A stretch of DNA of 64,000 nucleotides, taken from assembly GCA_003054665.1 (NCBI GenBank), contig QAYY01000003.1, positions 186,001-250,000 on the forward strand, read 5' to 3'. The notes under the pieces were generated by a model. It saw only the letters and a program-made list of their open reading frames with translations, did no database searches and had not been told where the DNA came from. Each line of letters begins with the position of its first letter. Positions within the stretch are counted from its first letter, which is position 1. The stretch comes from Opitutaceae bacterium EW11 (GTDB taxonomy: Bacteria > Verrucomicrobiota > Verrucomicrobiia > Opitutales > Opitutaceae). The translations under genes were made by a program, and so were the position numbers. Shown here piece by piece: positions 13,086-27,977 of the stretch.

Positions 13086-14792
13086 ATGAACTGGATCGAC
13101 TGGCTGGTGCTGCTCGGGACGATGATTGGGATCGCCGGCTACGGCACCTGGCGCACGCGCCACACGAACCGGCTCAAGACTTACCTGAAGGGCAGCGAGT
13201 CGGCGAAGTGGGGCACGATCGGCCTTTCGGTCATGGCCACGCAGGCCAGCGCGATCACCTTCCTCTCCATCCCGGGCCAGGGCTTCGAGAGCGGCGTGGG
13301 TTTCGTGCAGAACTATTTCGGCCTGCCGATCGCCCTCATCGTCGTGAGCGCGGTTTTCCTGCCTATCTACCGCAAGCTCGGCGTGTATACGGCCTACGAA
13401 TACCTGGGCCGGCGGTTCGACGCCAAGACGCGCCTTCTCGGCGCGGCGCTCTTCCTCCTCCAGCGCGGCCTCGCCGCCGGTGTGACGATCTACGCCCCCG
13501 CGATCATCATCTCGAGCGTCCTCGGGTGGCCCCTGAACCTCACGATCCTCTGCACGGGCCTGCTCGTGATCGTCTATACCGTCACCGGCGGAAGCGAGGC
13601 GGTGAGTTTCACCCAGAAATGGCAGATGGCGGTGATCTTCGGCGGGATGATCACGGCATTTGTCGTGCTCGTCCTGAAACTTCCCCCGGAACTGGGCTTC
13701 GGCGGTGCGGCGCACGTCGCCGGCGCGTTGGGCAAACTCCAGGCGGTGGATTTTTCGCTCAATCCGGACCATCGCTACACCCTCTGGAGCGGAGTGTTCG
13801 GCGGCGTTTTCCTCTCGCTCTCGTATTTCGGCACGGACCAATCGCAGGTGCAGCGCTACATCGGCGGAGCGGCCCTGCGCGAGGGGCGGCTCGGGCTCAT
13901 GTTCAACGCGGTGGTGAAGATCCCGATGCAGTTCTTCATCCTGCTCCTCGGGGCGCTCGTGTTTGTGTTTTATCAATTCCACCCGGCGCCAGTCTTCTTC
14001 AACCAGGCCGAATGGCGGCAGCACACCACCGGTGCGGGGAGCGACAAGTTCCGTGAGATCGAAGCGCGCCACGCCGAGGCGCAGAAGGTGAGGGTGGAGC
14101 GGGTGCGCGAGTGGAACGAGCGCCGGCTCGCCGGCGATGCGGCCGCGGAGGCGGAAGCGCGAAAGTCGATGGTCCAGGCCCAAGCCAAGGTCGACGCCGC
14201 CCGGGCGGACGCCAAGAAGGCGCTCCTGCAGGAGGATCCCGGCGCGAAGACCAAGGACTCCGATTACGTCTTCATCAGTTTTATCCTCGACTATCTGCCG
14301 CACGGCGCGGTGGGCCTGCTGATCGCGGTGATGTTCGCGGCCGCGCTTTCGTCGAAGGCCGGCGAACTGACGGCCCTGGCCTCGACCACCACGATCGATC
14401 TCTGGCGGCAGTTCCGGCCCCTCGCCGCGGCCGACGAGGCGAGAAACGTGCGGGTGGCGAAGTGGTTCACCGCCTTCTGGGGCTTGTTCGCGATCGGCTT
14501 CGCGCTCTTCGCGCGGTTTGCGGAGAACCTGATCGAGGCGATCAACATCCTCGGCTCGATCTTCTACGGCGTGGTGCTGGGGATTTTCCTCGTCGCGTTT
14601 TTCTTCCGGCGCGTCGGCGGCACGGCGGTCTTCTGGGCCGCGGTGATCGCTCAGGCGCTGGTCATCGTGTTTTATGCCACGCTCGCGATCTCGTACCTCT
14701 GGTACAACCCGATCGGCTGCGCCGCCTGCGTCGGGCTCAGCCTTCTCCTGCAGGGAATCCTTTCCGCGCACGCCGCGGTGAAGCGCCTATGA
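13086..14792 (+). CDS. Sodium:solute symporter (SSS) family transporter
   Basis: The 568-residue protein has about thirteen membrane spans. The SSS core is clear: IAGYGTWRTRHTNRLKTYL at the N-terminus, SVMATQASAITFLSIPGQGF in the first sodium-binding region, VYTVTGGSEAVSFTQKWQ, and SLSYFGTDQSQVQRYI. An unusual charged, helical insertion of about 75 residues (residues ~318-394, rich in Glu, Arg, Lys and Ala) sits between two spans, before SDYVFISFIL. SSS proteins import sugars, amino acids or organic acids with sodium. The gene is 9 bp after the 48-aa membrane protein and overlaps the BshC-like gene, so it belongs to this thiol-related operon. The substrate cannot be assigned. Confidence 0.92.
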   Translation: MNWIDWLVLLGTMIGIAGYGTWRTRHTNRLKTYLKGSESAKWGTIGLSVMATQASAITFLSIPGQGFESGVGFVQNYFGLPIALIVVSAVFLPIYRKLGVYTAYEYLGRRFDAKTRLLGAALFLLQRGLAAGVTIYAPAIIISSVLGWPLNLTILCTGLLVIVYTVTGGSEAVSFTQKWQMAVIFGGMITAFVVLVLKLPPELGFGGAAHVAGALGKLQAVDFSLNPDHRYTLWSGVFGGVFLSLSYFGTDQSQVQRYIGGAALREGRLGLMFNAVVKIPMQFFILLLGALVFVFYQFHPAPVFFNQAEWRQHTTGAGSDKFREIEARHAEAQKVRVERVREWNERRLAGDAAAEAEARKSMVQAQAKVDAARADAKKALLQEDPGAKTKDSDYVFISFILDYLPHGAVGLLIAVMFAAALSSKAGELTALASTTTIDLWRQFRPLAAADEARNVRVAKWFTAFWGLFAIGFALFARFAENLIEAINILGSIFYGVVLGIFLVAFFFRRVGGTAVFWAAVIAQALVIVFYATLAISYLWYNPIGCAACVGLSLLLQGILSAHAAVKRL

Positions 14793-15562
14793 ACGACGGT
14801 CCAGTCATCTGTTTCGGCCAGCAGCCCTGCGGCATCTTTCCGCGTCGCTTTCTCTACGCGAAGATCGTGACTGCACGCCGGCTTCAGCGGGAGATCGGAG
14901 GCCGCATCGTCTTTTTCTTCCACGACGCCGACCACGATCCGCGCGAGACCCAGACGTTCGTGCACCACCGGAAGACCGGCGAGGTGCAGATGCTGAATTT
15001 CGCCTTCGAGAACAAACTCCAGCGGAAATACTCGCCGCTCTGCCTGAAACGCATTCCCGCGGGCTGGCGCGAATCGACGGCCCGGCAGCTGCCGGCGTTT
15101 GTCGACCGTCGCTGGGTCGACGTTTTCAAGAACGTCCAGGCGGACAACGTGGCCGACTTCTGCCTCGAGATGTACCGCGGCATGGGTCTGCTCGAGGGGA
15201 TCGAGATCGTGAGGTCGGGCTCCGCCGACGTGCGGCGCGCCGCGTGTGAGATCGGCGACTTTTTCGTCGACGTTCCCTTCGAGGGCGAAGTGGTCCGAGC
15301 CCGCTGGCGGGACGGCGCGCTCCAGCTGCACGAAGGCGGCGACGTTTACCGAACCGTGCCGTTGGTGCCGTTCGGCAAGGAGCAGGTCAGCCCGACGCGT
15401 GACAGTCGGCTCCGCTGGATGCAGTCCGTCATTCACTGCACGCACTACGTCTCGGGCATGGGCGAACAGGCCTACTTGCGAAAAGAGGATGCCCCTGAAA
15501 TCGTCTACGTCACCCGCGACACCATCGACCGTTCCGATGAAGCCTACACCGACATCGCCTGA
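14789..15562 (+). CDS. Short BshC-like protein (putative bacillithiol-type cysteine ligase)
   Basis: The 257-residue product was not recognised at first by length, but its motifs match BshC, the last enzyme of bacillithiol synthesis. There is CFGQQPCGIF, where BshC has a G-Q-Q-x-G nucleotide-like loop, then FLYAKIVTARRL. FFHDADHDPRETQTFVH aligns with the BshC segment containing E-D-H-D and FVH. Near the end VSGMGEQAYL aligns with the BshC A-G-P-G-E-x-x-Y block. Known BshC proteins are about 540 residues with a long C-terminal coiled coil, which is absent here. The gene overlaps the symporter stop (ATGA) and the bshB1 start by 26 nt, and bshA follows, which strongly supports the role. Activity with cysteine and glucosaminyl-malate is inference. 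Confidence 0.72.
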   Translation: MNDGPVICFGQQPCGIFPRRFLYAKIVTARRLQREIGGRIVFFFHDADHDPRETQTFVHHRKTGEVQMLNFAFENKLQRKYSPLCLKRIPAGWRESTARQLPAFVDRRWVDVFKNVQADNVADFCLEMYRGMGLLEGIEIVRSGSADVRRAACEIGDFFVDVPFEGEVVRARWRDGALQLHEGGDVYRTVPLVPFGKEQVSPTRDSRLRWMQSVIHCTHYVSGMGEQAYLRKEDAPEIVYVTRDTIDRSDEAYTDIA

Positions 15563-16271
15563 GACCGGCGGCCTGCTCGTTTTCGGCGCGCACCCCGACG
15601 ACATCGAGTTCGGCTGCGGCGCCGTGGTCGCGCGGGAAACAGCGGCCGGCGTGCGAGCGCACTTCGTCGTTTGTTCGCGCGGCGAGTCCGGCACGCACGG
15701 GGCGCCCGAACAGCGGGTCGCGGAGGCGACCGCCGCGGCCAAGCTGCTCGGCGCAAGCGTCGAGTTCGTCGATTTGGGCGGCGACGCGCACCTCGAATAC
15801 GGAGTGGCGCAGAGCCTGGTCCTGGCCGCGATCGTCCGCCGGGTGCGCCCGCGTATTGTCCTTTCTCCTACCGTCGTCGAAGCGCAGCATCCCGATCACG
15901 CGGTGGTGGGCCGGCTCGTGCGCGACGCGGCCCGGCTGGCGCGCTACGGCGGCGTGGCGGAACTCCAGGCGCTGCCCGCCCACGCGATCGACGTTTTGCT
16001 CCAGTATGCCGTCACGCCGGACGGCGAGCCTGCCGGCATCGCGCCGGTCCTGATCGACGTCTCGGAGAAGCCGGTGCGGGACGCCTGGGTTGCGGCGATG
16101 GAGGCGCACGCCTCGCAGATGAAGACCCGCAACTACATCGAGCTTCAGCTGACTCGGGCTCGCCTCAACGGACTCCGCGCCGGAGCCGAGCACGCCATCG
16201 CGCTCTTTCCGGCCGAGCCGCTCGTCTTCGACTCACTTCAATCGCTGCGCCGTTCCGCGCGCCGCTTCTAG
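15537..16271 (+). CDS. bshB1: BshB1, GlcNAc-malate deacetylase (PIG-L family)
   Basis: The 244-residue cytoplasmic protein has the LmbE-type zinc motif AHPDDIEFGCG near residue 18 and the second metal block EAQHPDHAVVG, plus MKTRNYIELQ near the C-terminus as in BshB1. The family removes acetate from N-acetylglucosaminyl-malate to give glucosaminyl-malate in bacillithiol synthesis. The start codon lies inside the end of the BshC-like gene (26-nt overlap) and bshA follows after 2 nt, the usual partner arrangement. It differs from the secreted PIG-L protein at the head of the operon by lacking a signal peptide and extra domains. Confidence 0.9.
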   Translation: MKPTPTSPETGGLLVFGAHPDDIEFGCGAVVARETAAGVRAHFVVCSRGESGTHGAPEQRVAEATAAAKLLGASVEFVDLGGDAHLEYGVAQSLVLAAIVRRVRPRIVLSPTVVEAQHPDHAVVGRLVRDAARLARYGGVAELQALPAHAIDVLLQYAVTPDGEPAGIAPVLIDVSEKPVRDAWVAAMEAHASQMKTRNYIELQLTRARLNGLRAGAEHAIALFPAEPLVFDSLQSLRRSARRF

Positions 16272-16273
16272 TC

Positions 16274-17413
16274 ATGGCCTCTGCTCAGTTTCTCAAGATC
16301 GGCATCACCTGTTACCCCTCCGTCGGAGGTAGCGGGATTCTGGCGTCGATCCTCGGCGAGGAATTGGCGCGCCGAGGGCACGAGGTCCATTTCATCAGCT
16401 ACGGACGGCCGTTCCGAATGCCGGCGGAGGCCCCGCGCGTGTATTTCCACCCGGTCGAGATCAACGACTACGAGCTTTTCAAATACCCCGACTACACGCT
16501 TCCGCTTTCGGTCAAGATGGCCGAAGTGACGCGCGAGCACGGGTTGGATCTGCTGCACGTGCATTACGCCGTGCCGCACGCGACCGCGGCGATCCTGGCG
16601 CGCGACATGTTGCCGACGGACCTTCAGCCGAAGGTCGTGACCACGCTGCACGGCACGGACACAACGCTACTCGGCCGTGACCCGGGCTACGGTCCGGCGA
16701 TCCGGCACGCGCTGAGCTGCTCCGACGCCGTCACGACGGTATCGAATTTCCTGCGACGCGAGACGATCCGCGTGCTGAAGGTGGAGCGCCCGATCGAGGT
16801 GATCTACAATTTCTTCGAACCCAAGGAGCCGAAGCGGTCGCGAGAGGCCGTCCGCAAGGCGCTGGGGCTCGGCGACGAGGTTCTGCTCCTCCACGCCTCG
16901 AACCTCCGGCCGGTGAAGCGCATCGATCTGCTGCTGGAGACGATGACGAAAATCGTGACGCCGGTGCCGTTCAAGCTGCTGGTGATGGCCGGCGGGGACT
17001 TCGCTCCCTTCCTGCCGGAAGTCCAGCGTCTCGGGTTGGAGAACCGGATAATCGTCCGGGAGAACGTGACGGAGATCGAAGACTACCTTCAGGCCGCGGA
17101 CGTGGGACTGTTTACCTCGGAGATGGAGAGCTTCTGCCTGAGCCTGCTCGAAGCGATGTGCTTCGGCTGCCCGAGCGTTTCGACGGCAGTCGGCGGCATC
17201 CCGGAAGTCGCGGTCCACGAGGAGAGCGGGCTTTTGTATCCGTTCGGAGACGCCGACGCCCTGGCCGCCGGAGCGAAACGGCTCATCGAGGAGCCAGCCT
17301 CTCGCTCTCGCCTCGGTGGTGCGGCCAAGGCGCGGGCGAAACAACTTTTCTCCGCGGACGCGATCGTGCCCCAGTACGAGGCTTTGTACCGCCGGGTGTG
17401 CGGATCGAGATGA
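16274..17413 (+). CDS. bshA: BshA, N-acetylglucosaminyl-malate synthase (GT4)
   Basis: The 379-residue product has the normal BshA length. It carries the diagnostic N-terminus KIGITCYPSVGGSGILAS, then HVHYAVPHA, VTTLHGTDTTLLG and SNLRPVKRIDLL. The GT4 E-x7-E motif is in ESFCLSLLEAM near residue 290. BshA transfers GlcNAc from UDP-GlcNAc to L-malate, the first step of bacillithiol synthesis. It is the last gene of the overlapping operon; no terminator with a T-run was found behind it. The call is firm because BshA is easily told from other GT4 enzymes by these N-terminal blocks. Confidence 0.93.
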   Translation: MASAQFLKIGITCYPSVGGSGILASILGEELARRGHEVHFISYGRPFRMPAEAPRVYFHPVEINDYELFKYPDYTLPLSVKMAEVTREHGLDLLHVHYAVPHATAAILARDMLPTDLQPKVVTTLHGTDTTLLGRDPGYGPAIRHALSCSDAVTTVSNFLRRETIRVLKVERPIEVIYNFFEPKEPKRSREAVRKALGLGDEVLLLHASNLRPVKRIDLLLETMTKIVTPVPFKLLVMAGGDFAPFLPEVQRLGLENRIIVRENVTEIEDYLQAADVGLFTSEMESFCLSLLEAMCFGCPSVSTAVGGIPEVAVHEESGLLYPFGDADALAAGAKRLIEEPASRSRLGGAAKARAKQLFSADAIVPQYEALYRRVCGSR

Positions 17414-17579
17414 GGGGCAGAGCGGTCCGCCTGCGCCGCTAAAAGCTGAAGTGGATTCACGAATACAATCCGAACCAAGCGAGCGGACGTGATTCCCTAA
17501 CACAGTGTCACTACGGCCGGCGGGTTGACTTTCATCAGCCGGCTGTATGGCGTGGAAGCTCGGTCGTACCCACCCCAGC

Positions 17580-18368
17580 ATGAGAGACCTCGCCTGCGTT
17601 ATCGCTGGCGGATTGGCATGGAGTCTTGTGAGCCCCTGCGCCTTTGCCGCCCCAGCTTCCATTGAACCTGCCCAGAAAGCGGTGATGGAATGGTCCCGAA
17701 TACGGTCTGAGACCGTTCGGATGGAAACCCAATGGGAGTGGGAGCGGGAAACGCTCCGCACGACCGAGATCGCGCTGCAGGATCGCGTCCGTGCCCTGGA
17801 GGAAAAACAGGCGGTGCTGAACGCGAAGAGTTCGGGAGAAAGAAAGTCCCTGGACGAACTCGCCGCGAAAAATGCCGCGACCGACGCGGCGTTGAAAAAC
17901 ACAGCGGAGCGCATGCAGGAAATCGCCGCCGAGCTGACGCGGCTTCGGCCATCCTTACCCCCGAGGCTCTCGCAGGGTCTGGAATTCGCGTTCCGCAGCG
18001 CCAACTCGCCGACCGCCAGCGTCGGCGAACGCGCTCAGCACGTCCTGACGATTCTGACTCGTTGCGGTCAGTTCAACCGGGTGATCACGCCAGGTGAGGA
18101 GGTGCTGAGGCTGCCCGGAGAGTCGGAGGAAAAGCTCGTCGAGGTGATTTACTGGGGCCTCAGCCATGCCTACGCGCTCGATCGGGCCAAGGGCATCGCC
18201 TACCTGGGCGGACCCACCGAGAAAGGCTGGACCTGGGTGGCCAAACCGGAAGCTGCTGCAGCGGTTTCGCAGCTTCTTGCGATGGCCCGCGACAAGGCCG
18301 ACCCGGCGTTCGTCGAGGTACCCGCGCGAGTGATGCACGCTTCGTCCAAACCGATCGCCGCGCCATGA
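17580..18368 (+). CDS. DUF3450-family periplasmic coiled-coil protein of a TonB operon
   Basis: The 262-residue product starts MRDLACVIAGG with a signal peptide ending near CAFAAP. It has a long coiled coil (about residues 20-115, heptads rich in Glu, Arg and Leu) and a compact C-terminal domain (VIYWGLSHAYALDRAKGIAYLGGP) typical of DUF3450. An ATG 33 nt earlier at 17547 is possible; the later one was preferred because it starts the signal peptide directly. A TTGACT hexamer at 17524-17529 may be a -35 box, but the matching -10 is poor. The stop overlaps the start of the next gene. In Vibrio and Shewanella the same family heads TtpC-type TonB operons. Confidence 0.82.
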   Translation: MRDLACVIAGGLAWSLVSPCAFAAPASIEPAQKAVMEWSRIRSETVRMETQWEWERETLRTTEIALQDRVRALEEKQAVLNAKSSGERKSLDELAAKNAATDAALKNTAERMQEIAAELTRLRPSLPPRLSQGLEFAFRSANSPTASVGERAQHVLTILTRCGQFNRVITPGEEVLRLPGESEEKLVEVIYWGLSHAYALDRAKGIAYLGGPTEKGWTWVAKPEAAAAVSQLLAMARDKADPAFVEVPARVMHASSKPIAAP

Positions 18369-19810
18369 AAGCTTCTCTTTGGATCGGATGTTTGGCTCTC
18401 ACGGCCTCGGCGGTGTGCTTGCCGGCAAGGGCGGCCGAGCAACCCGCTCCGCCGCTCGAACGCCTGGTGAATCAGGCCGTCGCCGACTACACGGCGAAAC
18501 TCCAGGACGCCACGCGCGAGTTGCAGGCCACCCGCGATCGGATCGCGGCCGAAAAGAAGCCGTTGCTCGATCGTATTCGGGAACTGGAGGACCGCGCCGT
18601 TGCGCTCGAGGCGCAGGTTTCCACCCAGGAGGCGCGCCAGGCGGAGAACGAGGACAAGCGGCAGCGTCTGCTGAAGGATGGAGCCCTGTTGGCCAAAAAC
18701 ACGGCGTACCAGAACACGCTCGCCATGGATGCGCTGAAGAACGCCGCCTCGGGCCTTCTTCCGGGCGAAGTGGAGCCGCTCGGAACTGCGATCGCGACAC
18801 TCCAGCAAAGGATCGAATCGGAGAGGAATTCCGGCGGAGCCGGCGCGGCGGAGATTTCGCGGTTTCTTCTGGAGCGGGTGAACCAGCAGCTCGGAGGGTA
18901 TTCGGTGGAGGGCAAGGCGCTCGTCGCCGGAAAAAACGTCATGGTGCCGGGCAGGTTCGTCTACCTCGGCCCGGAAGTGTTTTTCGGGTCCTCCGACCAA
19001 ACCGTGTTTGGCACCGTCCGGACGCGCGAGGGATCCACGTATTCGATGACATATGACGTCCCGGGCTGGGACAGATCCCGGGCGGCCGGACTGTTTGCCA
19101 AGGCGGAGGGCACCGCGGCGCTCGACGCTTCCGGCGGCAAGGCGCTTCGCCTTCAGGAGACCGAAGGCACGGTCTGGCAGCACATCAAACGAGGCGGAGT
19201 GGTCGCCTTTCTCATCATCGGCGTCGGGCTCCTGGCTCTCGGAATCGCTCTGCACAAGCTTTGGGAACTGCGCCAGCTGCGTCTCGATTCGCCGCTAGAG
19301 GTGAAGGGCGTGCTGGAAGAGTTCTTCTCCGCCAACCCGGAGCAGGCGCGCGCCGCCGTGTCCCGGTTGACCGGATCAACCGCGGGGTTGTTTGCCGCCG
19401 GGCTGCGCTGCCTGGGAAAACCCAAGGACGTGCTCGAGGAACAGCTCTACGCCTACACGCTTCAGCAGCGGTTGCATTTCGAACGCCGGCTCCCGCTGCT
19501 CGCCGTGATCGCGACCGCGGCGCCGCTCATGGGCCTGCTCGGCACGGTCATGGGCATGGTGAAGACCTTCGCGTTGATCACGGTTTTTGGCACGGGCAAC
19601 GCCGCGAAGCTCTCGAGCGGCATTTCGGAGGTGCTGGTGACGACGGAGCTCGGCCTGGCCGTCGCGATTCCCGCGCTGGTCGCTCACGGCTTCCTCTCGC
19701 ACCGCATCCAGAAGAAACTCTCGTTGCTCGAGCAGTACGCGGTGGAGTTTCTCGCCGCCGCAAGCGAGGCGCGGAAGGAGGAGTCCGAGGTGGGCTCGCA
19801 TCAGGCATGA
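18365..19810 (+). CDS. TtpC-like MotA/TolQ/ExbB proton-channel protein with periplasmic N-domain
   Basis: The 481-residue product has a signal peptide (ASAVCLPARAAE), then about 230 residues of periplasmic sequence with a coiled coil. The C-terminal ExbB/TolQ domain follows: a first span near residue 277 (VAFLIIGVGLLALGIAL), the channel helix LAVIATAAPLMGLLGTVMGM near 377 and LVTTELGLAVAIPALVAHG near 420. ExbB/TolQ proteins use proton flow to energise outer-membrane transport. The fused periplasmic part distinguishes TtpC from ordinary ExbB. It overlaps its neighbours at both ends by the ATGA arrangement, so it is co-translated with DUF3450 and ExbB. Confidence 0.88.
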   Translation: MKASLWIGCLALTASAVCLPARAAEQPAPPLERLVNQAVADYTAKLQDATRELQATRDRIAAEKKPLLDRIRELEDRAVALEAQVSTQEARQAENEDKRQRLLKDGALLAKNTAYQNTLAMDALKNAASGLLPGEVEPLGTAIATLQQRIESERNSGGAGAAEISRFLLERVNQQLGGYSVEGKALVAGKNVMVPGRFVYLGPEVFFGSSDQTVFGTVRTREGSTYSMTYDVPGWDRSRAAGLFAKAEGTAALDASGGKALRLQETEGTVWQHIKRGGVVAFLIIGVGLLALGIALHKLWELRQLRLDSPLEVKGVLEEFFSANPEQARAAVSRLTGSTAGLFAAGLRCLGKPKDVLEEQLYAYTLQQRLHFERRLPLLAVIATAAPLMGLLGTVMGMVKTFALITVFGTGNAAKLSSGISEVLVTTELGLAVAIPALVAHGFLSHRIQKKLSLLEQYAVEFLAAASEARKEESEVGSHQA

Positions 19811-20292
19811 ACCAGGTCAAAGAGCTCCTCGAGAACGGCGGCCCCGTGATCTTCGTGATCATCGCGCTATCGGTGATTCTCTACAGCCGCTGCTTTCACC
19901 TCCTGCTTTTCTTTTTCAAGGTGGAGCGCGCGCTCCGCAGCCGGATCCCCGAAGATCTCACGGACCGGGAGTCGATTCACGCGGCGCAGGGCCGGCTTGA
20001 GCAGGCGTTCCGGCAGCAGCGGATTCCCATCGGGGCCATGATCGCGGCAGCCCCGCTCCTCGGCTTGCTCGGCACGGTCACGGGCATGATCCGCTCCTTC
20101 GGGAGTCTGGCGCAGTTCGGCAACCAGCGGTCGATGGAGGGACTGGCCAAGGGAATCTCCGAGGTGCTGGTGGATACGGAGTCAGGACTGGCAGTGGCGA
20201 TCCCTGCTCTCCTTCTGACGTACTACGCGCACCGGTTGCTTCAGAAGTCCCTCCTTCGGCTTGGGACGATCGAAACCCTCGCGAAAGGTTGA
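19807..20292 (+). CDS. exbB: ExbB-like proton-channel protein (short form)
   Basis: The 161-residue protein has a first span (PVIFVIIALSVILYSRCF) near the N-terminus and the two channel helices MIAAAPLLGLLGTVTGMIRSF and VDTESGLAVAIPALLLTYYA of the MotA/TolQ/ExbB family. The cytoplasmic loop is short, as in the ExbB2 subgroup. It would form a proton channel with ExbD. The start overlaps the preceding ExbB fusion gene and ExbD follows after 2 bp. Two different ExbB-type channels in one operon is the hallmark of TtpC systems. Confidence 0.9.
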   Translation: MNQVKELLENGGPVIFVIIALSVILYSRCFHLLLFFFKVERALRSRIPEDLTDRESIHAAQGRLEQAFRQQRIPIGAMIAAAPLLGLLGTVTGMIRSFGSLAQFGNQRSMEGLAKGISEVLVDTESGLAVAIPALLLTYYAHRLLQKSLLRLGTIETLAKG

Positions 20293-20294
20293 CC

Positions 20295-20708
20295 ATGCTC
20301 CGCCAACGGTATGCCAGCCGCCATTACGAGGGTACGCACATCGACATGACGCCCATGGTCGATTGCATCATGGTGCTGCTGATTTTCCTGATGGTGAGCA
20401 GCGCGTTTGTGGAGGATCCGGGCATCGAGGTTCAGAAACCCGACGTCGGCGGCACGGAAGTGGCCGAACAGAACACGCTCCTCGTCGCGATTTCGTCCGA
20501 TGACCGCGTCTATTTCGACGGGCAGGAGATTCCGATCGACCAAGTGGCGTTGCGTGTGCGCCAGGCAGCGATCGGACGGAGTCCGGCGCTGATCATCCGT
20601 GCGGACAAAGGCTGCAGCCACGGCGTCTTTGCCGCCGTTTACAGCGAGGCGAAACACGCCGGCATAGCCCATGTGCAGTTCGCCACGGCGCAGACGGAGG
20701 CGCCCTGA
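20295..20708 (+). CDS. exbD: ExbD-type biopolymer transport protein
   Basis: The 137-residue product has a cytoplasmic tail, a single span and a periplasmic domain. HIDMTPMVDCIMVLLIFLMV contains the conserved membrane-embedded Asp at residue 23, the proton-carrying residue in ExbD and TolR. The ATG at 20295 was preferred over an in-frame TTG at 20289 because AAAGG lies just upstream. It sits between exbB and tonB with almost no spacing. Confidence 0.92.
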   Translation: MLRQRYASRHYEGTHIDMTPMVDCIMVLLIFLMVSSAFVEDPGIEVQKPDVGGTEVAEQNTLLVAISSDDRVYFDGQEIPIDQVALRVRQAAIGRSPALIIRADKGCSHGVFAAVYSEAKHAGIAHVQFATAQTEAP

Positions 20709-20711
20709 TTC

Positions 20712-21437
20712 GTGAGCCAGTCCGCCACATCCTTCAACGAGATCGTCGTGACGCAGGGGAGACTGACGTCGGTCGCGAGCGTCGTGTCCGGAGCTCTCTT
20801 CACGGCCGGCCTTTTCACCGCGATCGCCTTCGTGCCGAAGGAATCGTCGCCGGACGGCGTCCCTCAGTTCGAGGAACTGCGCGCCGTGGCCGCCCCGGTC
20901 TCTCCGCCCCCGCCGCCCGAAGAGACGATCGAAAAGCCGCAGGAGGTACCGGGCGGCGAACTCGTGCTTCTCGGCGAAGAGCGGACCGATAGCCCGGTGA
21001 AGCTCCCCGCCGCACCCGTGCCGGTGGACGTGCCGCTGCAGACCGCCGCCGTCCCGCGCTTCGATTTCGCTCCCACCGCCTTCCAGCCGGCCTCGATGAA
21101 TCCGGAATTCGAGGCCCGGCGCGTCTACGAGAAATCCGAGGTGGATCAGCCGCCGGTGGCCGTCTACAAGGAGGCGCCCGACCTGCCGAGCGACGTGATC
21201 AAGCGGATGAAGAAGCTGGAGGCCACGTTCGTTTTTGTCGTCGGACTTGACGGTTCCGCGAGCCGTATCCGTGTGCTCGATTCGAGCAACAATCCGACGG
21301 TCGACCGGCTTTCCATCGAGGCCCTGCAACAGTGGAAATTCACCCCTGCGATCAAGCGTGGGAAAACCGTCCGTTGCTGGATCCACCAGCGTCTCATTTT
21401 CAAGTTGCCGGCGACGAGCCGATTTAGCGTGCAATGA
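20712..21437 (+). CDS. tonB: TonB-family energy transducer, GTG start
   Basis: The 241-residue product starts at GTG, 3 bp after exbD. It has one N-terminal span (VSGALFTAGLFTAIAFV), a proline-rich linker (APVSPPPPPEETIEKP) and a TonB C-terminal domain (LEATFVFVVGLDGSASRIRV, then LSIEALQQWKFTPAIKRGK). TonB passes energy from ExbB/ExbD to outer-membrane receptors. The linker is shorter than in E. coli TonB, as in TonB2-type proteins; spanning the periplasm may need the partner DUF3450 or TtpC-like proteins, which is an inference. Confidence 0.9.
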   Translation: MSQSATSFNEIVVTQGRLTSVASVVSGALFTAGLFTAIAFVPKESSPDGVPQFEELRAVAAPVSPPPPPEETIEKPQEVPGGELVLLGEERTDSPVKLPAAPVPVDVPLQTAAVPRFDFAPTAFQPASMNPEFEARRVYEKSEVDQPPVAVYKEAPDLPSDVIKRMKKLEATFVFVVGLDGSASRIRVLDSSNNPTVDRLSIEALQQWKFTPAIKRGKTVRCWIHQRLIFKLPATSRFSVQ

Positions 21438-21438
21438 C

Positions 21439-22854
21439 ATGAAGCTTGCCCCGTTCTGTTTCATCCTGGTTGCGACCCTTCCCGCCTTGCGGGCGGCCCC
21501 CGGCCCTGGTCCGGAGCGCGATGGCGCGCCGCCGCCGCGCCGTAACGAAGCTCCTGCGCCGCGTCGCGACAGCCGGCAGATCGACGGCAGCCGGATCATC
21601 AACGAGTCCTACAGCTTCAAGAAGAACCAGGAACCGGAGATGTCGGCCGACGAATACGCGATCTACGAGAAGGTCGTGGGCATGGTGGCGGTGAACCCGG
21701 AATTCGCGCTGAAACTGATGGCCACCATGACGGCGGGAGAAAAACCCACGCCGGCATTCGAGTTCGTTTTGGGCAACATCTACTTCACCAACGGAAAACC
21801 GGAGGTGGCCGAGACGCATTTTCGCAACGCGGTGCGAATGTACCCCGATTTCACGCGCGCTTGGACGAATCTCGGCGTGCTTCTGTATAACCAACACAAC
21901 TACCAAGAGGCCGCGGAGTGTTTCACCAAGGTGGTCTCGAAGGGCGAGGGCACCGCGGAGAACCTTGGCCTGCTCGCTTACTGCCTGGACAAGACCGGGC
22001 GGAAGACCGCCGCCGAGATGAACTACATTCAGGCGGTGGGGCTGGATCCCGACAATGTGGGCTACCTTAGCGGACTGCTTTCGCTTTATCTCGAATCCAA
22101 GCAGTACGCGCGGGCCGAACCGTTGCTGCAGCAGCTCACCCGCCTGCAGCCGGACGACCGGAGAAACTGGGCGGTCTACGCCAGCCTGCTTGTTGCCGAG
22201 GACCGCAAACTCGACGCGGTGGCCATCCTGCAGGGCGCGGCCGCTCTCGACCTCCTCGACGAGGAGGGACGCGCGATGCTGTGCGATCTTTACGCTTCGC
22301 TGCAGTTTCACCGCGAGGCCAACGAAGCCTACGCGGAGTTGCGCAAGCGGTCGCCGAGCCTCGCCCAATCCCGTCAGCTTGCGTACACGCAGAGCTTGAT
22401 CGGCGAAAAGAAGTACTTGCTCGCGGACCAAGCGCTCGGGGAACTCGAAAAGGCCGGCGTTTCCGGCGAAGCCGGGATTCCGATCTGGCTGGCGAAAGGC
22501 TCGCTGTGCATCGGCCTCGAACGCTGGGCCGATGCTCGGGTGGGGTACCAGAAGGTGCTCGACCTTTCGCCGCTCAATCCGGACGCGTTGCTCGGCATGG
22601 CGCGGGTCGAAAAGGCGACAAACAACCTCGCCCGGGCAGAGGTGTTTTTCGAACAGGCCGCGCAACAGCCAAGCACTGCCCAGCGCGCGTGCCTCGAACT
22701 GGCCGAACTCGCCATCAAGAGCCGTCGTTATCCTCGCGCGCTGGGCTTTCTCGAAAAGGCGGTGGCGATCGAGCGCTCCCCGGCGCTCGAAATGTACATC
22801 GCCCGGATCCGAACCGTCGTGGCCGCGCCGGAAGGAACTCCCGTGTCCCGGTGA
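21439..22854 (+). CDS. Secreted TPR-repeat protein of the TonB operon
   Basis: The 471-residue product has a signal peptide (CFILVATLPALRAAP), a short Arg/Pro-rich linker and then about ten helical TPR repeats. Examples are EFVLGNIYFTNGKPEVAETH, AWTNLGVLLYNQHNYQEAAE and ALGFLEKAVAIERSPALEMY. TPR proteins of this type close TtpC-type TonB operons in gammaproteobacteria. It starts 1 bp after the tonB stop and probably acts as a periplasmic scaffold. No enzymatic domain is seen. Confidence 0.88.
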   Translation: MKLAPFCFILVATLPALRAAPGPGPERDGAPPPRRNEAPAPRRDSRQIDGSRIINESYSFKKNQEPEMSADEYAIYEKVVGMVAVNPEFALKLMATMTAGEKPTPAFEFVLGNIYFTNGKPEVAETHFRNAVRMYPDFTRAWTNLGVLLYNQHNYQEAAECFTKVVSKGEGTAENLGLLAYCLDKTGRKTAAEMNYIQAVGLDPDNVGYLSGLLSLYLESKQYARAEPLLQQLTRLQPDDRRNWAVYASLLVAEDRKLDAVAILQGAAALDLLDEEGRAMLCDLYASLQFHREANEAYAELRKRSPSLAQSRQLAYTQSLIGEKKYLLADQALGELEKAGVSGEAGIPIWLAKGSLCIGLERWADARVGYQKVLDLSPLNPDALLGMARVEKATNNLARAEVFFEQAAQQPSTAQRACLELAELAIKSRRYPRALGFLEKAVAIERSPALEMYIARIRTVVAAPEGTPVSR

Positions 22855-22901
22855 TTCAAGCCGTGCCCTCCTCTTTCTCGAAACTCAATCAGGATACCCA
22901 A

Positions 22902-24095
22902 ATGAATACGTTCTCCATCAAACCCAGCGTCGCACCCCGGACGTCGTTCCGTGCGGTGCTCCTGGGACTCGGAGTCTGTGTGAGCTCGGTTGCGCCACTG
23001 CTGCGCGCGCAGGCCGATACCTCGGCCAACAAGGACTATATCGTGTTTGTCGGACTCAACCTGGAGGTCTCCGAGAGCGGCAAGTACCTGCCGGTGATCG
23101 ATGCCGAGAACAATGTCGTGCACGTCGACCGCGATCACAAACGCGAGAAGATCGACCTGAAACGGGCGGAGGGCATCCGCATTACGCGGGGCGTCAAGCT
23201 CAGCACCCGGCAGGCGGAGATCGCGGACTTGGAGTCGGAAATGGAGTCCCGGAGAGGCAAGATGGAGGCTCTGCAGGCGAATCTCGCCGTGCAGGGCGAG
23301 CTTCAGGATCAGATGCAGCGGCAGGACTCCGGGTTTGCCCGTGCGGACTACAACGGGGTGCGGCGCCAGGACAACGGTGCGTCAACCGGATCCGCCCAGT
23401 CGTCCTACACCGCTCAGGTTCCGCAGATCAACCAGGGCATGAGTGCCTCGAATGTCCTGCTCGATCGTCAGATCGCCCAGATCGGCGGCGTGGCGGACAC
23501 GTATAACGTCTCGTTCAATCTCAGTTCTCCGACCCCGATCGAAAGCGGCTACGTGGTGCTCGTGACCGACTTTGTGGTTCCGGGGAAAGACGAGGCCGTC
23601 CACTACCGGGTGGCGACGCGATCGCTCGGCCGGATCGACGTCAAACCGAAGCACATCACGCTCTCGCAGTCCGGGTTCCCGGCGGGATTTGAGGTGAAGG
23701 CGCACCACGTCGGAGTTTTTTCCGAAGGGCAGGAGGTGGTCACGAATCTTTCCGACAAGCGGGTCCCGCTTTCGCGAAAAGACGCGGAGCAGTTCCTCTT
23801 GATGCAGTACGTCATCGCCCACCAGGGCGAGACACGCGTCGCGAAAGCCTATCCGATGCTTCCCCAGCCGGAGCTGCGCAAACGCGTCGATCCGTCGCAG
23901 TTGCCTCCCGTGGTCTACGTCGACGTCGACAAGGAAGGAGCGGTGCTCGGGTACTTCGGCGACAAGACCGGGAAGCAGAAGCTGACCGGCCAAGCGGAGA
24001 CCGCGATGCAGGTGGTTTCGTTCTACCCGGCCTTGGAAAAAGGCGCACCGGTCGCAGGTCGTGCGACGGTGGTCGTCGCCGAGTTGCTGAAATAG
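22902..24095 (+). CDS. Secreted protein of unknown function at the end of the TonB operon
   Basis: This 397-residue product was not recognised. It has a long signal peptide (VLLGLGVCVSSVAPLLRAQA), then a domain starting DYIVFVGLNLEVSESGKYLP. A coiled coil lies at about residues 105-140 (IADLESEMESRRGKMEAL), followed by a low-complexity Gln/Ser/Thr region. A C-terminal beta-rich domain has SGYVVLVTDFVVPGKDEAVH and LPPVVYVDVDKEGAVLGYFG. AGGA precedes the ATG by 9 nt. The 47-bp gap after the TPR gene and same-strand position suggest it belongs to the TonB operon. It could be a periplasmic or outer-membrane-associated partner; nothing points to an enzyme. Confidence 0.75.
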   Translation: MNTFSIKPSVAPRTSFRAVLLGLGVCVSSVAPLLRAQADTSANKDYIVFVGLNLEVSESGKYLPVIDAENNVVHVDRDHKREKIDLKRAEGIRITRGVKLSTRQAEIADLESEMESRRGKMEALQANLAVQGELQDQMQRQDSGFARADYNGVRRQDNGASTGSAQSSYTAQVPQINQGMSASNVLLDRQIAQIGGVADTYNVSFNLSSPTPIESGYVVLVTDFVVPGKDEAVHYRVATRSLGRIDVKPKHITLSQSGFPAGFEVKAHHVGVFSEGQEVVTNLSDKRVPLSRKDAEQFLLMQYVIAHQGETRVAKAYPMLPQPELRKRVDPSQLPPVVYVDVDKEGAVLGYFGDKTGKQKLTGQAETAMQVVSFYPALEKGAPVAGRATVVVAELLK

Positions 24096-24118
24096 CCGGA
24101 GCTTGTCCGAAAGGAGGC

Positions 24119-24149
24119 GGACGCCGCTGCTCGCACGGGAGCGGCGTCC
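24119..24149. terminator. Bidirectional hairpin between the TonB operon and radC
   Basis: A perfect 10-bp stem (GGACGCCGCT / AGCGGCGTCC) with an 11-nt loop lies between two converging transcription units, 23 bp after the last TonB-operon gene and 21 bp after radC. There is no long T-run on either side, so efficiency is uncertain. Confidence 0.6.
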
Positions 24150-24170
24150 AAGCCGGTTGGAACCGCGGAA

Positions 24171-24950
24171 TCAGAGCAGACCTGCGGCGCGAAAACTGTA
24201 GAAACCCTGGCCGGAGGGGTCGCTCGTCTTCTTTCCCAGGATGACGTGATCCAAGAGGTCGATACACACGGTCTTGGCCGCCTCGCGCAGTTGCCGCGTG
24301 ACCTGGATGTCGGCTGCACTCGGGGTGGGATCGCCGCTGGGGTGGTTGTGCGCGCAGATCAGGGCAGCGGCTCCTTCGCGGATGGCGCAGCGAAAGACCT
24401 CCCGCGGGTGGACAAGGCTGTTCGTGGCGGTGCCGGATGTAACCTCGACCCGCTTCAGGAGGCGGTTTTTCCGGTTGAGGCAGAGGACCCAGAATTTCTC
24501 CACCTCGAGGCCCACGAGCAGCGGCGAGAAGTGGTCCGCAACCAGCTCGGCGCGCCCGAGCACCGGCGCTTCGTCCGGGAGGGCGGCGATTATCCGGCGC
24601 GCGATCTCCATCACCGCCACCAATTGAAGCGCCTTCACGGGGCCGATGCCGCGGATCGCCTTGAACTCCGATTCCCGCCACGTGACGAGCCGGGCGAGCG
24701 ATCCGGCTTCGTTCAGCAGCCGGTGCGACAGCGTGACCACGTCGGTCCCGCGCGTGCCGCTGCGCAGGAGCAGGGCGAGCAACTCGGCGTCGCTTACCGC
24801 CGAGGGGCCGAGTCGTTCGAGCCGCTCTTGCGGCCGGTCGCTGACGGAGAGCTCCCGCAGGCGGTTGTTTTCGCAGATGGTTCCTCTCACTCCCTCGCAG
24901 TCGTTCATCGGACGAGCGAGGAGGAAAACATTGTCATCGGCAAGCGACAT
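24171..24950 (-). CDS. radC: RadC-family JAB/MPN-domain protein
   Basis: The 259-residue product has an N-terminal helix-hairpin-helix part (RGIGPVKALQLVAVMEIARR) and the JAMM metal motif in AALICAHNHPSGDPTPSAAD (H-x-H and a following Asp). The family is widespread; its cellular role is unresolved despite the historical repair name. The ATG at 24950 was chosen because GGAG lies 7 nt before it; a second ATG at 24908 gives a shorter protein. The gene is alone, converging with the TonB operon and diverging from the GH115 gene. Confidence 0.9.
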   Translation of the reverse strand: MSLADDNVFLLARPMNDCEGVRGTICENNRLRELSVSDRPQERLERLGPSAVSDAELLALLLRSGTRGTDVVTLSHRLLNEAGSLARLVTWRESEFKAIRGIGPVKALQLVAVMEIARRIIAALPDEAPVLGRAELVADHFSPLLVGLEVEKFWVLCLNRKNRLLKRVEVTSGTATNSLVHPREVFRCAIREGAAALICAHNHPSGDPTPSAADIQVTRQLREAAKTVCIDLLDHVILGKKTSDPSGQGFYSFRAAGLL

Positions 24951-25028
24951 ATTCCGACTCCGACAAGAACCAAACCGTTCGAAATCGTGCCGGTTGTGCC
25001 GGCACGGGTTTGGGCGCAACGTGTGCCT

Positions 25029-27977
25029 ATGCGTCGCACGTTTACCTCCTGCCTGACGTGGATGGCCTGTGTTTTTTTCTTCGGTTGGCTGCCTTGCCTC
25101 CGGGCCGCTGCGCCTCTCCGCATTCCGGATGGCACGCGTGCGACCTTCGTTGTTGTCCCCCCTGGACAGCCTGAACTCGTTGGCATCGCCGCAAGGCTCT
25201 TTGCCGACGACCTTGAGCGGCTGACCGGATACCGCCCAGCCGTCGTCCCGCAGCTTGGTCAGGCGCAAGGTCAGGCGATCGTGCTCGGGACGGTCGATTC
25301 GCCGGAGATTCTACGCCTGGGAGAAAAGACGGCTCACACCATCGAGACGCTGCGCGGACGATGGGAGAGCTACGCGTATTTCGAGGCGACGGACGAAGCG
25401 GCGCAGGGAAGACGGGTTTTCGTCGTCGTGGGCAGCGATCGCCGAGGGGTGGCCTACGGCGCCTTGGCGTTGTCGAGAGGTTGGGGCGTTTCTCCATGGT
25501 ACTGGTGGGCTGACGTGCCCGTGCCGCGCCGCTCCTTTGTCGAGTTTCCCACCGAGACAACGATTTCGCCGTCTCCAGCCGTCAAATACCGCGGCATCTT
25601 CATCAACGACGAGGACTGGGGACTCGAGCCCTGGGCGGCGCACACCGTTGAGCCCGAGGTCGGAACCATCGGCCCCAAAACCTACGCTCGCGTCTGCGAA
25701 CTCTTGCTGCGCCTGCACGCCAACCTCCTATGGCCGGCGATGCACGATTGCACGCGCGCGTTCTACAAGGTGCCCGGCAACAAGGAAGTGGCGGACGCCT
25801 ATGGGATCGTGATCGGCACCAGCCATGCCGAGCCGATGCTGCGTAACAACGTCGACGAATGGGACGAGAAGGCGCGTGGTCCGTTCAATTATCAGACGAA
25901 CCGGGATCAGGTGTTGGACTATTGGCGCGAGCGGGTGGGGCAGGTATCCGGGACGGAGGCAATCTATACGCTCGGCATGCGCGGCATCCACGACAGCCCG
26001 ATGGTCGGCGTGACGACGATGCAGGAGAAGATCGCCGCGATGGAGGATGTGCTGGCGCAGCAGCGCGAAATGCTTCACCGCGCCTCGCCGGACCGGCAGC
26101 TCCCGCAGGTGTTTGTCCCGTACAAAGAGGTGCTCGATGCCTACGATGCCGGGCTGCGCGTGCCGGACGACGTCACGCTGATGTGGACGGACGACAACTT
26201 CGGGTATCTCCGGCGGCTCAGCGACGAAACCGAGCGGAAACGTTCCGGCGGGTCCGGTGTGTATTACCATGTTTCCTACTGGGGGCAGCCGCACGATTAC
26301 CTCTGGCTCGCGACGACCCACCCGATGCATGTGTGGGAGGAGATGACGAAAGCGTACGAGTCCGGCGCCGACCGAATCTGGGTGCTGAACGTCGGCGATA
26401 TAAAACCCGCCGAGTACCTGACTCAGCTGTTCATGGATCTCGCGGTGTCGCCTGCGTCCCTGTCGACACCGGCCTCCATCCGCGCCCATCTCACCACCTG
26501 GTGCTCGGAGGCATTCGGGGAGGAACAGGGGGCTCCGATCGCGGACGCGCTCTGGGAGTATTACGCGCTCGCCTTCGAACGCCGGCCCGAACACCTCGGC
26601 TGGAACGGCGTCGAGCCCACCACGGGGACACAACCGACGGCGTACAACCCTTTCGAATACGGCGACCAGATCCAACGGCGCTTGGACCGCTATGCCGCCC
26701 TGGAGGCGAAGGTCCGCTCGGTCGCGGCGGGGCTTGCTCCCGCAAGTCAGGATGCGTTTTTCCAGCTGGTGCAGTATCCGGTCGCCGGTGCGGCGGCGAT
26801 GAACCGGAAGGTGCTCTACCGCGAGAAGGCTGAGCGCTACGCGCACCAGCATCGTTTCAGCGCCAACTCTTTCGCGAAGCTCGCCTACGCCGCGCAGGCT
26901 CAGATCGCGGCGGACACCGATGTCTACAACGAGCGGATCTCCGGTGGAAAGTGGCGCAGCATCCTGTCGGCGGCACCGCGGAATCTGCCGATCTTCGCGT
27001 CCGAACCGCTCCCGCAATGGACCTTTCCCGGTCCGGCTGAGTGGGGTGTGATGGCGGAGGGGCCAGTGGCTGAACGACCGGATACGGAGGTCTTCGGGAA
27101 AGCTCGCGAGGTGACCCGGGCCCGCAAGCTGCCGACGTTCACGGTCGGCCTCCCGCAGCAGTTCTACGTCGATCTTTTCACAAGCGGCCCCGTCGACCTG
27201 GGCTGGAAGACTGCGGTATCGGCGGACTGGATTCGCCTTTCGAGCGCGGAAGGCCGGTTCACACCGGACTCCGCCGGCGCCCGGCAGCGAATCTGGGTTT
27301 CGATCGATCCCAAGCGCGTGCCTGCAGACGCTCGCACCAACGGCACGATCCGGATCGAAGCCGGCGGGCGAGCGGCGGAGGTCGGCGTTTCTGTCGTGAG
27401 GATCCCCCGGGAAGCGGCTTCGGCGGGAACCGCCGTTGAAACGAACGGGTACGTGGCATTCGACGCTGTCGGCTACTCTGAAAAGCGAGACGAAGGGACT
27501 GCTCCGTGGCACGTGCTGGACGGTCTCGGCTATTCAGGGAAGGCGGTGGGCACTCTTCCGGTCGCGGCCGGAGGCGCCGCGAGTGCCGAGCCCGCCGAGG
27601 TTGCCAGAGCGGCTGCCTACCTCGAATACCGCTTTTTTGTGGTCTCTGGCGGTGAAGCGTCGATGGCGGTCAACTGCCTGCCCACGCTGCCGATCGATCG
27701 AAAGCACGGGATGCGGTTTGCCGTTGGTCTCGATGGCGGTGCGCCGGTCCTGGTCGATATCGCCACGCAGGGCCGGAGCCCCACCTGGAAGAAGAACGTG
27801 CTGAGCAATCAGGCGACCGCGCGGTTGCCGGTGTTGCGCCTGAAGCCCGGCGAACACCGCCTGCGGCTTTACCGAGTGGATCCGGGCATCGTTTTCGATA
27901 CCGTCACGATCGATTTCGGTGGTCTGCCGAGCGGCTGCGGCCGCGTGCCTCCGACCGTGATCGAGGGGCAACCGTGA
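25029..27977 (+). CDS. GH115-family alpha-glucuronidase, secreted
   Basis: The 982-residue product begins MRRTFTSCLTWMACVFFFGW with a signal peptide ending near LRAAAP. The N-terminal domain (IVLGTVDSPEIL, VVGSDRRGVAYGALALSRGW) and the central barrel match GH115: KYRGIFINDEDWGLEPW, HANLLWPAMHD, IVIGTSHAEPMLRNN and LMWTDDNFGYLRRL. The C-terminal third is beta-rich and probably binds carbohydrate. GH115 enzymes remove (4-O-methyl-)glucuronic acid from internal or terminal xylose units of glucuronoxylan. An open frame extends upstream over radC but is antisense and lacks family similarity; the ATG at 25029 starts the signal peptide. No other xylan genes are adjacent. Confidence 0.93.
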   Translation: MRRTFTSCLTWMACVFFFGWLPCLRAAAPLRIPDGTRATFVVVPPGQPELVGIAARLFADDLERLTGYRPAVVPQLGQAQGQAIVLGTVDSPEILRLGEKTAHTIETLRGRWESYAYFEATDEAAQGRRVFVVVGSDRRGVAYGALALSRGWGVSPWYWWADVPVPRRSFVEFPTETTISPSPAVKYRGIFINDEDWGLEPWAAHTVEPEVGTIGPKTYARVCELLLRLHANLLWPAMHDCTRAFYKVPGNKEVADAYGIVIGTSHAEPMLRNNVDEWDEKARGPFNYQTNRDQVLDYWRERVGQVSGTEAIYTLGMRGIHDSPMVGVTTMQEKIAAMEDVLAQQREMLHRASPDRQLPQVFVPYKEVLDAYDAGLRVPDDVTLMWTDDNFGYLRRLSDETERKRSGGSGVYYHVSYWGQPHDYLWLATTHPMHVWEEMTKAYESGADRIWVLNVGDIKPAEYLTQLFMDLAVSPASLSTPASIRAHLTTWCSEAFGEEQGAPIADALWEYYALAFERRPEHLGWNGVEPTTGTQPTAYNPFEYGDQIQRRLDRYAALEAKVRSVAAGLAPASQDAFFQLVQYPVAGAAAMNRKVLYREKAERYAHQHRFSANSFAKLAYAAQAQIAADTDVYNERISGGKWRSILSAAPRNLPIFASEPLPQWTFPGPAEWGVMAEGPVAERPDTEVFGKAREVTRARKLPTFTVGLPQQFYVDLFTSGPVDLGWKTAVSADWIRLSSAEGRFTPDSAGARQRIWVSIDPKRVPADARTNGTIRIEAGGRAAEVGVSVVRIPREAASAGTAVETNGYVAFDAVGYSEKRDEGTAPWHVLDGLGYSGKAVGTLPVAAGGAASAEPAEVARAAAYLEYRFFVVSGGEASMAVNCLPTLPIDRKHGMRFAVGLDGGAPVLVDIATQGRSPTWKKNVLSNQATARLPVLRLKPGEHRLRLYRVDPGIVFDTVTIDFGGLPSGCGRVPPTVIEGQP

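Follow-up and report, generated by a model that had tools for sequence, protein, structure and literature searches.

According to the sections of PMC6957404 that deal with it, the TonB2 operon of Vibrio vulnificus has the gene order ttpB2-ttpC2-exbB2-exbD2-tonB2-ttpD2, all six genes are reported as essential for siderophore uptake, and iron (Fur) regulation is a trait of the system. A second account describes the Ttp system as being restricted to vibrios and certain marine bacteria. It gives ttpB, ttpC, exbB, exbD, tonB, and ttpD for the TonB2 and TonB3 clusters of Teredinibacter turnerae, where the Ttp-type tonB2 serves the use of siderophores and cellulose-derived carbohydrates, redundantly with tonB1b (PMC10734418, in its passages on these clusters). 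Here, we describe a related locus in a 64,000-nucleotide stretch, called the window, of the verrucomicrobial Opitutaceae bacterium EW11 (GCA_003054665.1; contig QAYY01000003.1, positions 186,001 to 250,000 of the forward strand). Seven consecutive plus-strand genes fill positions 17580-24095 of the window, which belongs to a genome of 6.4 Mb. Six of them form a complete Ttp-type set, TtpB-TtpC-ExbB-ExbD-TonB-TPR. The seventh is a new element, an addition to the known Ttp operon in this family-level lineage.

The first gene (17580..18368, 262 amino acids) encodes a TtpB-like protein recognized by Pfam DUF3450 (64.5 bits, cut-off 32.6; E 1.2e-17), the only DUF3450 match of the genome at E <= 0.001. 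By hydropathy, it has a hydrophobic, signal-peptide-like N-terminal segment, followed by a coiled coil and a small globular part; an in-frame ATG at 17547 is an alternative start. The TtpC-like protein (18365..19810, 481 amino acids; Pfam MotA_ExbB, 2.1e-25) ends in an ExbB channel of three membrane helices, preceded by an N-terminal segment and a periplasmic part homologous to TtpB. It is followed by a small ExbB with three membrane segments in the hydropathy plot (19807..20292, 161 amino acids; MotA_ExbB, 4.2e-21) and by ExbD (20295..20708, 137 amino acids; Pfam ExbD, 94.6 bits, 6.1e-27), which has one membrane segment and the conserved Asp (IDMTPMVD). TonB (20712..21437, 241 amino acids, GTG start; Pfam TonB_C, 42.7 bits, 8.1e-11) consists of a membrane anchor of one segment, a Pro-rich linker (24 Pro in residues 41-165), and the C-terminal domain. 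The protein in the TtpD position (21439..22854, 471 amino acids) matches several Pfam TPR families and has a signal-peptide-like N-terminus as judged by hydropathy. The TtpB/TtpC and TtpC/ExbB genes overlap by 4 nt, and spacers of 1-3 nt separate ExbB from ExbD, ExbD from TonB, and TonB from the TPR gene. Finally, the seventh gene (22902..24095, 397 amino acids) begins either with ATG at 22902, 47 nt past the TPR stop, or with GTG at 22851, in which case the two genes share 4 nt. Its product has no significant Pfam or NCBIfam match and a TonB-like C-terminal domain at about residues 316-397.

An initial annotation, made from the letters alone, had read DUF3450, an ExbB fusion, ExbB, ExbD, TonB, and TPR in this order, and open reading frames (ORFs) together with Pfam recovered all six on the plus strand. 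Its remark that the genes touch or overlap is true for these six (gaps of -4 to +3 nt). The expression "three-part energiser", also used there, is an understatement for six genes plus a seventh, which the end coordinate 24095 had already taken in without naming it. No promoter-like site was found in 16800-24700, and Rfam gave no match at gathering scores. A search of the window for a Fur box with up to three mismatches returned 0 matches; the consensus used was what we take to be the E. coli type, which may not hold in this phylum.

The order of DUF3450, ExbB fusion, small ExbB, ExbD, TonB, and TPR is the one published for V. vulnificus TonB2, as far as that description goes, from which the window operon differs by its phylum and by the extra seventh gene, the TPR gene being the sixth of seven. 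V. vulnificus itself is likened here by gene order only (the window TtpC is 22-25% identical to two gammaproteobacterial TtpCs), and the TPR protein is likened to Vibrio TtpD only by its TPR families and gene position. The gammaproteobacterial loci used for comparison, from Pseudoalteromonas, Salinivibrio, and Vibrio campbellii (the last by profile only), share the layout. The Teredinibacter clusters contain the same six genes but belong to a gammaproteobacterium, and a seventh gene is not named in the published passages on them (PMC10734418). Closer in taxonomy is cluster 001433-001438 of Verruconatronum alginivorum, also a member of the Verrucomicrobiota, with TonB, two TolQ/ExbB proteins, ExbD, and a TonB plug; likened by its description only, it is not called Ttp in the part of the source that presents it (PMC13274419).

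In an AlphaFold2 model of TtpC (47-sequence alignment; mean predicted local distance difference test, pLDDT, 87.7), residues 35-129 form a 95-residue helix, residues 179-230 a small beta part, and residues 265-481 an ExbB/TolQ fold. Over the last of these regions, a fold search gave Z 17.6 for TolQ 8odt and 17.4 for ExbB 6ye4, and 14.6-17.6 over the 18 ExbB/TolQ entries listed. For the rest of the protein, a region barely tested, no fold match was reported. The window TtpC thus has the channel fold of the E. coli ExbB-ExbD-TonB and TolQ-TolR-TolA systems, which differ in having one channel protein, no TtpB, and no comparable periplasmic fusion. We then placed the ExbB domain in a tree of 91 rows; this and all other trees are of a quick type, supported by the Shimodaira-Hasegawa approximate likelihood ratio test (SH-aLRT) only. 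Its TtpC rows came from 31 loci hand-picked from 113 and from four TtpCs cut by contig ends, leaving out L048 and the long or odd rows L074, L076, L121, L142, and L170 of an earlier tree. All 35 TtpC rows, the window and Salinivibrio among them, lie on one side of a branch with SH-aLRT 92, so that the window TtpC shares a branch with its gammaproteobacterial counterparts. They span Gammaproteobacteria, Thermodesulfobacteriota, Myxococcota, Krumholzibacteriota, Planctomycetota, and Verrucomicrobiota. The 34 small Ttp-ExbB rows lie on one side of another, weak branch (SH-aLRT 60), and the 22 ordinary ExbB/TolQ rows, to which the window's own genome contributes four, fall apart from both groups. 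The labelling of rows matters for this result: with the four contig-end-cut TtpCs labelled "other", a single TtpC clade was rejected (approximately unbiased test, p-AU 2.7e-5), and in an earlier tree including the mislabelled rows TtpC needed 7 changes; relabelled, the rows fall on one side of the branch. The comparison rows are ExbB and TolQ proteins, with no MotA row, and grouping of the fusion with TolQ is ruled out by this tree.

Two residues of the window TtpC, T394 and T427, which we take to be the pore threonines by analogy to E. coli ExbB, are conserved throughout: they or their equivalents are present in all 115 TtpC rows and in all 107 other ExbB rows from these loci. Since they are kept in both TtpC and the small ExbB, both channels could conduct, as far as sequence conservation can tell. 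Taken together, Pfam, locus comparison, pore residues, and the ExbB-domain tree agree with the initial assignment as a TtpC-type TonB operon with two ExbB channels outside the proteobacteria. A second channel is not universal: 11 of 115 TtpC-type loci lack a second ExbB-domain match, although one of these is partial (L164) and two are known by match count only (L096, L107). In the other eight (L074, L075, L076, L079, L089, L056, L063, and L082), the spacing between TtpC and ExbD is too short for a second ExbB; three of them (L056, L063, and L082) also have no TonB match and contain two ExbDs each. One channel protein is therefore apparently enough in some Ttp loci. A comparison of profiles from 111 TtpBs and 113 TtpC periplasmic parts by hhalign gave 97.8% (E 9.9e-13) against 48.6% for a reversed control. 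After removal of the coiled coils, the match still reached 92.0% (E 6.4e-7), with controls at <=0.8%. By this measure, the periplasmic parts of TtpB and TtpC are homologous. That DUF3450 occurs as an N-terminal appendage on ExbB-type proteins is already in print (PMC12505986, in the section concerned).

Of the five closest operons, which were examined first, four (L052, L053, L054, and L055) have the seventh gene immediately behind the TPR gene. The gene is present twice in L054 and L055 and absent from L051, the operon of genome G091. It likewise comes directly after the TPR gene in the operon of L120, an Opitutales metagenome-assembled genome whose more distant TtpC belongs to a sister group. 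In the other TtpC loci examined, some of which are cut short, neither of the two genes that come next belongs to the seventh family by this search. In a survey of the class, 10 of 384 genomes matched the seventh family, four of them weakly or partially, and all ten belong to the window's own family. Within this family, 32 of 252 genomes encode a window-type TtpC (>=500 bits; the next score is 350), and at least 38 contain the seventh family, with at least 103 matches, up to seven candidates having been scored per genome. It is carried by 31 of the 32 genomes with a window-type TtpC; full-length copies are present in four of the 220 genomes without one, a comparison uncorrected for kinship. In 26 of the 32, the gene is found on the TtpC strand at a distance of 3.0-4.4 kb downstream, and 12 of the 26 have it in tandem, two or three times. 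These placements are by distance, the intervening gene having been read in a minority, and the copy in G719 is a short partial match. Three of the remaining six are interrupted: G795 and G647 are cut by a contig end, and the contig of G775, which stops at 4,472 nt, does not reach the expected place. A literature search found no publication linking TtpC with the word stem Verrucomicrobi, or TonB2 and ExbB2 with Planctomycet, and among the literature matches listed the seven-gene operon is not in print.

We compared the C-terminus of the seventh family, that is, its last ∼80 residues, with TonB. The profile of 15 members against 100 TonB C-termini gave 96.2% (E 2e-9), and 51 members gave 96.4% by hhalign (E 1.3e-9), against <=0.7% for the controls of the latter comparison (reversed, ExbD, TPR, ExbB, TtpB, and TtpC). 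The N-terminal and middle parts of the family did not match TonB (2.9% and 0.7%). A search of 9,745 ORFs with the C-terminal profile returned eight family members first and then TonB-labelled proteins, with three matches at E <= 1 not labelled TonB (E 0.035, 0.32, and 0.7). In the converse search with a TonB profile, 34 of the 51 members came up at E <= 1, 22 of them at or below 0.1 and 4 at or below 1e-3; among 1,020 shuffled controls, none reached E <= 1. At the profile level, the C-terminus of the family can thus be called TonB-like. The window protein has one hydrophobic N-terminal segment (residues 16-34), which ends, by eye, in an Ala-X-Ala-like site and looks like a cleavable signal. 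An early hydrophobic segment is present in 40 of 51 members, the starts of some being trimmed, and a later one in six of 51. From these features, the protein is apparently exported. A Pro-rich linker is absent (8 Pro over 275 residues, compared to 24 over 125 for TonB), and therefore we do not class the protein as a TonB.

Since the channel, TonB, and scaffold components correspond to those of the Vibrio system, energization of receptors is the best-supported function: by analogy, the whole operon most likely energizes TonB-dependent receptors. TtpC and the small ExbB would be ExbB-type channel subunits that, with ExbD, let proton flow drive TonB, which in turn would pull on TonB-dependent receptors of the outer membrane. 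The coiled-coil-rich periplasmic parts of TtpC and TtpB probably pair above the membrane, around TonB, and the TPR protein would be a periplasmic scaffold. The seventh protein, exported and with a TonB-like C-terminus, is most likely periplasmic and located at the junction of TonB and receptor, binding TonB boxes, plugs, or TonB. It most likely intervenes between TonB and receptor, where it may help, spread, or brake, and it may be a new part of the Ttp machine. We consider it reasonably probable that the locus is a Ttp-type TonB energizer for outer-membrane receptors with an added seventh periplasmic protein at this junction. For the individual steps, we infer formation of the complex, energization of receptors, perhaps for carbohydrates, and the export and binding partner of the seventh protein. 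A search for TonB-dependent receptors, proposed in the initial annotation, was positive for the genome, with 66 plug domains. Four loci of other lineages (L104, L116, L167, and L170) have a TonB-dependent receptor (Pfam) one or two genes downstream of the Ttp operon; these four were Pfam-tested because their neighbors looked receptor-like, and most operons are listed without such a neighbor. Three of eight seventh-gene copies outside operons adjoin a gene for a carbohydrate enzyme (GH2, SASA esterase, and GH43). Together with the parallel of Teredinibacter tonB2, this makes a role of the window system in carbohydrate uptake plausible. At L203:6104-13920, three successive minus-strand genes encode a TonB-dependent receptor, a GH2 glycosidase, and a member of the seventh family.

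Several results weigh against this assignment of the seventh protein and its operon. No receptor gene is located within the 64-kb window. Only two of the eight copies outside operons have a receptor gene within three genes (eight neighbors were Pfam-tested). Genomes G091, G789, and G796 carry copies only elsewhere, and the operons of all three, which were read, do not contain the gene; it is therefore not strictly required there. Furthermore, the window's seventh protein alone scores E 0.83 against a single TonB profile, in the expected place (residues 306-393), and the TonB link rests on the family for this reason. Pfam TonB_C is reached by none of 36 members. Sequence searches of the PDB returned nothing with eight members, and with 36 members TonB appeared only at E 1.3 and 1.6, below a ribosomal-protein match (0.01) in another part. 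The AlphaFold2 model of the protein is poor (mean pLDDT 42, two-row alignment), so that a TonB-type fold is unconfirmed and the model is unfit for a fold search.

The first alternative is that the six genes are an ordinary Ttp system and that the seventh is merely cotranscribed, with an unrelated periplasmic job and a TonB-like tail that is one of many. The genome indeed contains 33 TonB_C matches, many in proteins without transmembrane segments or with several domains; 63 of the 103 seventh-family matches lie, by distance, away from the operon place, and some carriers have no copy in the operon. Mere cotranscription does not fit well with a gene that sits at its expected position in 26 loci out of 32 and is tandemly repeated in 12, with co-occurrence with window-type TtpC (31 of 32 against four of 220 full-length, as above), or with the gene's presence in the L120 operon. 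Therefore, we regard this explanation as unlikely, though it is one to be taken seriously. A bolder form of our own reading is equally tentative, and we think it unlikely as well: the Ton motor of this one verrucomicrobial family would have acquired the seventh protein as a further core part. Free in the periplasm, equipped with a TonB-like receptor-binding domain of its own, and encoded in one to three tandem copies per operon, it would relay the force of a single TonB, or share it out, to dozens of receptors.

Somewhat more doubtful is a role as a brake or buffer, in which a soluble TonB-like domain competes for TonB boxes or for the C-terminal domain of TonB. Such a role would suit a window protein with a TonB-like C-terminus and neither a Pro-rich linker nor a further membrane segment, and binding of receptor TonB boxes by soluble TonB fragments has been described (PMC11658791, in the passage concerned). 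Tandem duplication beside the operon would be odd for a brake, however, and the large conserved part (about residues 40-315) would be left unexplained. Still less probable is an alternative force transducer, comparable to a second TonB, whose uncleaved N-terminal anchor sits in the inner membrane beside ExbB/TtpC. The hydrophobic segment at residues 16-34 and a coiled-coil stretch in the low-confidence AlphaFold2 model could be taken in its favor, but the Ala-X-Ala-like site closing that segment and the scarcity of Pro compared to the TonB linker speak against it.

The six-gene core itself is ordinary for the phylum, neither rare nor freshly transferred. DUF3450 scored above the cut-off in at least 107 of 387 genomes of the phylum, with up to six matches per genome; both counts are lower bounds, since at most six matches were scored in each. 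All six gene kinds were found by profiles in 73 of 115 TtpC-type loci, a number reduced by contig ends and by distant TPR proteins that were missed; the arrangement is thus no chance assembly. The names of these six-gene loci include Verrucomicrobiota, Planctomycetota, Myxococcota, Thermodesulfobacteriota, Krumholzibacteriota, Kiritimatiellota, and Gammaproteobacteria; the scan of named genomes kept 80 loci among 596 stretches listed, and a phylum missing there carries no meaning. In a TtpC tree of 113 rows, which omits the partial rows L156 and L164, the window protein belongs to a clade of six rows from its own family (support 100), nested within groups of 13 (96) and 27 rows (99) in which a single Myxococcota row is the only one from outside the Verrucomicrobiota. 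Of the 21 Pseudomonadota rows, 20 fall on the opposite side, which also holds Thermodesulfobacteriota, part of the Myxococcota rows, four verrucomicrobial rows, and others. The tree thus indicates an old system in the phylum rather than a recent gift from proteobacteria, and a recent transfer from Vibrio is ruled out by it. That the operon was recently acquired from a proteobacterium, for which the mixture of phyla could be cited (the Myxococcota row among verrucomicrobial ones and the four verrucomicrobial rows on the proteobacterial side), is highly improbable given the three nested clades and the position of the Pseudomonadota rows across the tree. Where the initial annotation had left the choice between ancient and transferred, the first is favored by the position of the two channels on separate multiphylum branches, that of the small ExbB being weak, and transfer into this lineage from proteobacteria is contradicted by the nesting of TtpC among verrucomicrobial rows. 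From these separate branches, the split of the two channel paralogues probably predates the spread of the system across phyla, which may have come about by vertical descent or by old transfers. Locus L104:4516-16607, on a contig named as Myxococcota, contains a Ttp operon whose TtpC is nested among Opitutales (99), pointing to transfer or mis-binning; upstream of it, a minus-strand ORF looks penicillin-binding-protein-like by eye and has a TonB-like C-terminus.

Directly upstream of the operon (15537-17413) lies a bacillithiol-type pair consisting of BshA (over the NCBIfam cut-off) and a BshB1-like deacetylase (under the cut-off), preceded by a gene without family match (14789-15562). Downstream, a minus-strand ORF that is RadC-like by eye (24171-25268) is located between the operon and a gene for a glycosyl hydrolase of family 115 (Pfam; 24906-27977). 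L216-L221 and L225-L231 are loci of this genome noted for its TonB_C matches, 33 in all. Of 22 TonB_C-bearing proteins of this genome, many are short single domains that lack transmembrane segments or have a signal-peptide-like start, and six carry 2 to 5 tandem TonB_C domains. At L206:9253-10563 (minus strand), a sigma-70-type sigma factor is fused to a C-terminal TonB_C (Pfam) beside a divergent gene for an STN-type TonB-dependent receptor. In the window's own genome, L222:3747-5159 (plus strand) encodes a protein that looks similar to this fusion by eye; it contains a membrane segment, and its C-terminus is TonB-like.

Overall, the Ttp gene order is now seen in several further phyla, beyond the vibrios and certain marine bacteria to which the passages on it in PMC10734418 had assigned it. 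Natural operons without a second ExbB match offer a handle on the question of why a Ton motor needs two channel proteins. The chief interest lies in the seventh gene, whose product is a specific candidate for a partner that TonB may have in the periplasm. If the relay reading were true, energy transduction by Ton systems would not always be a direct contact between TonB and receptor.

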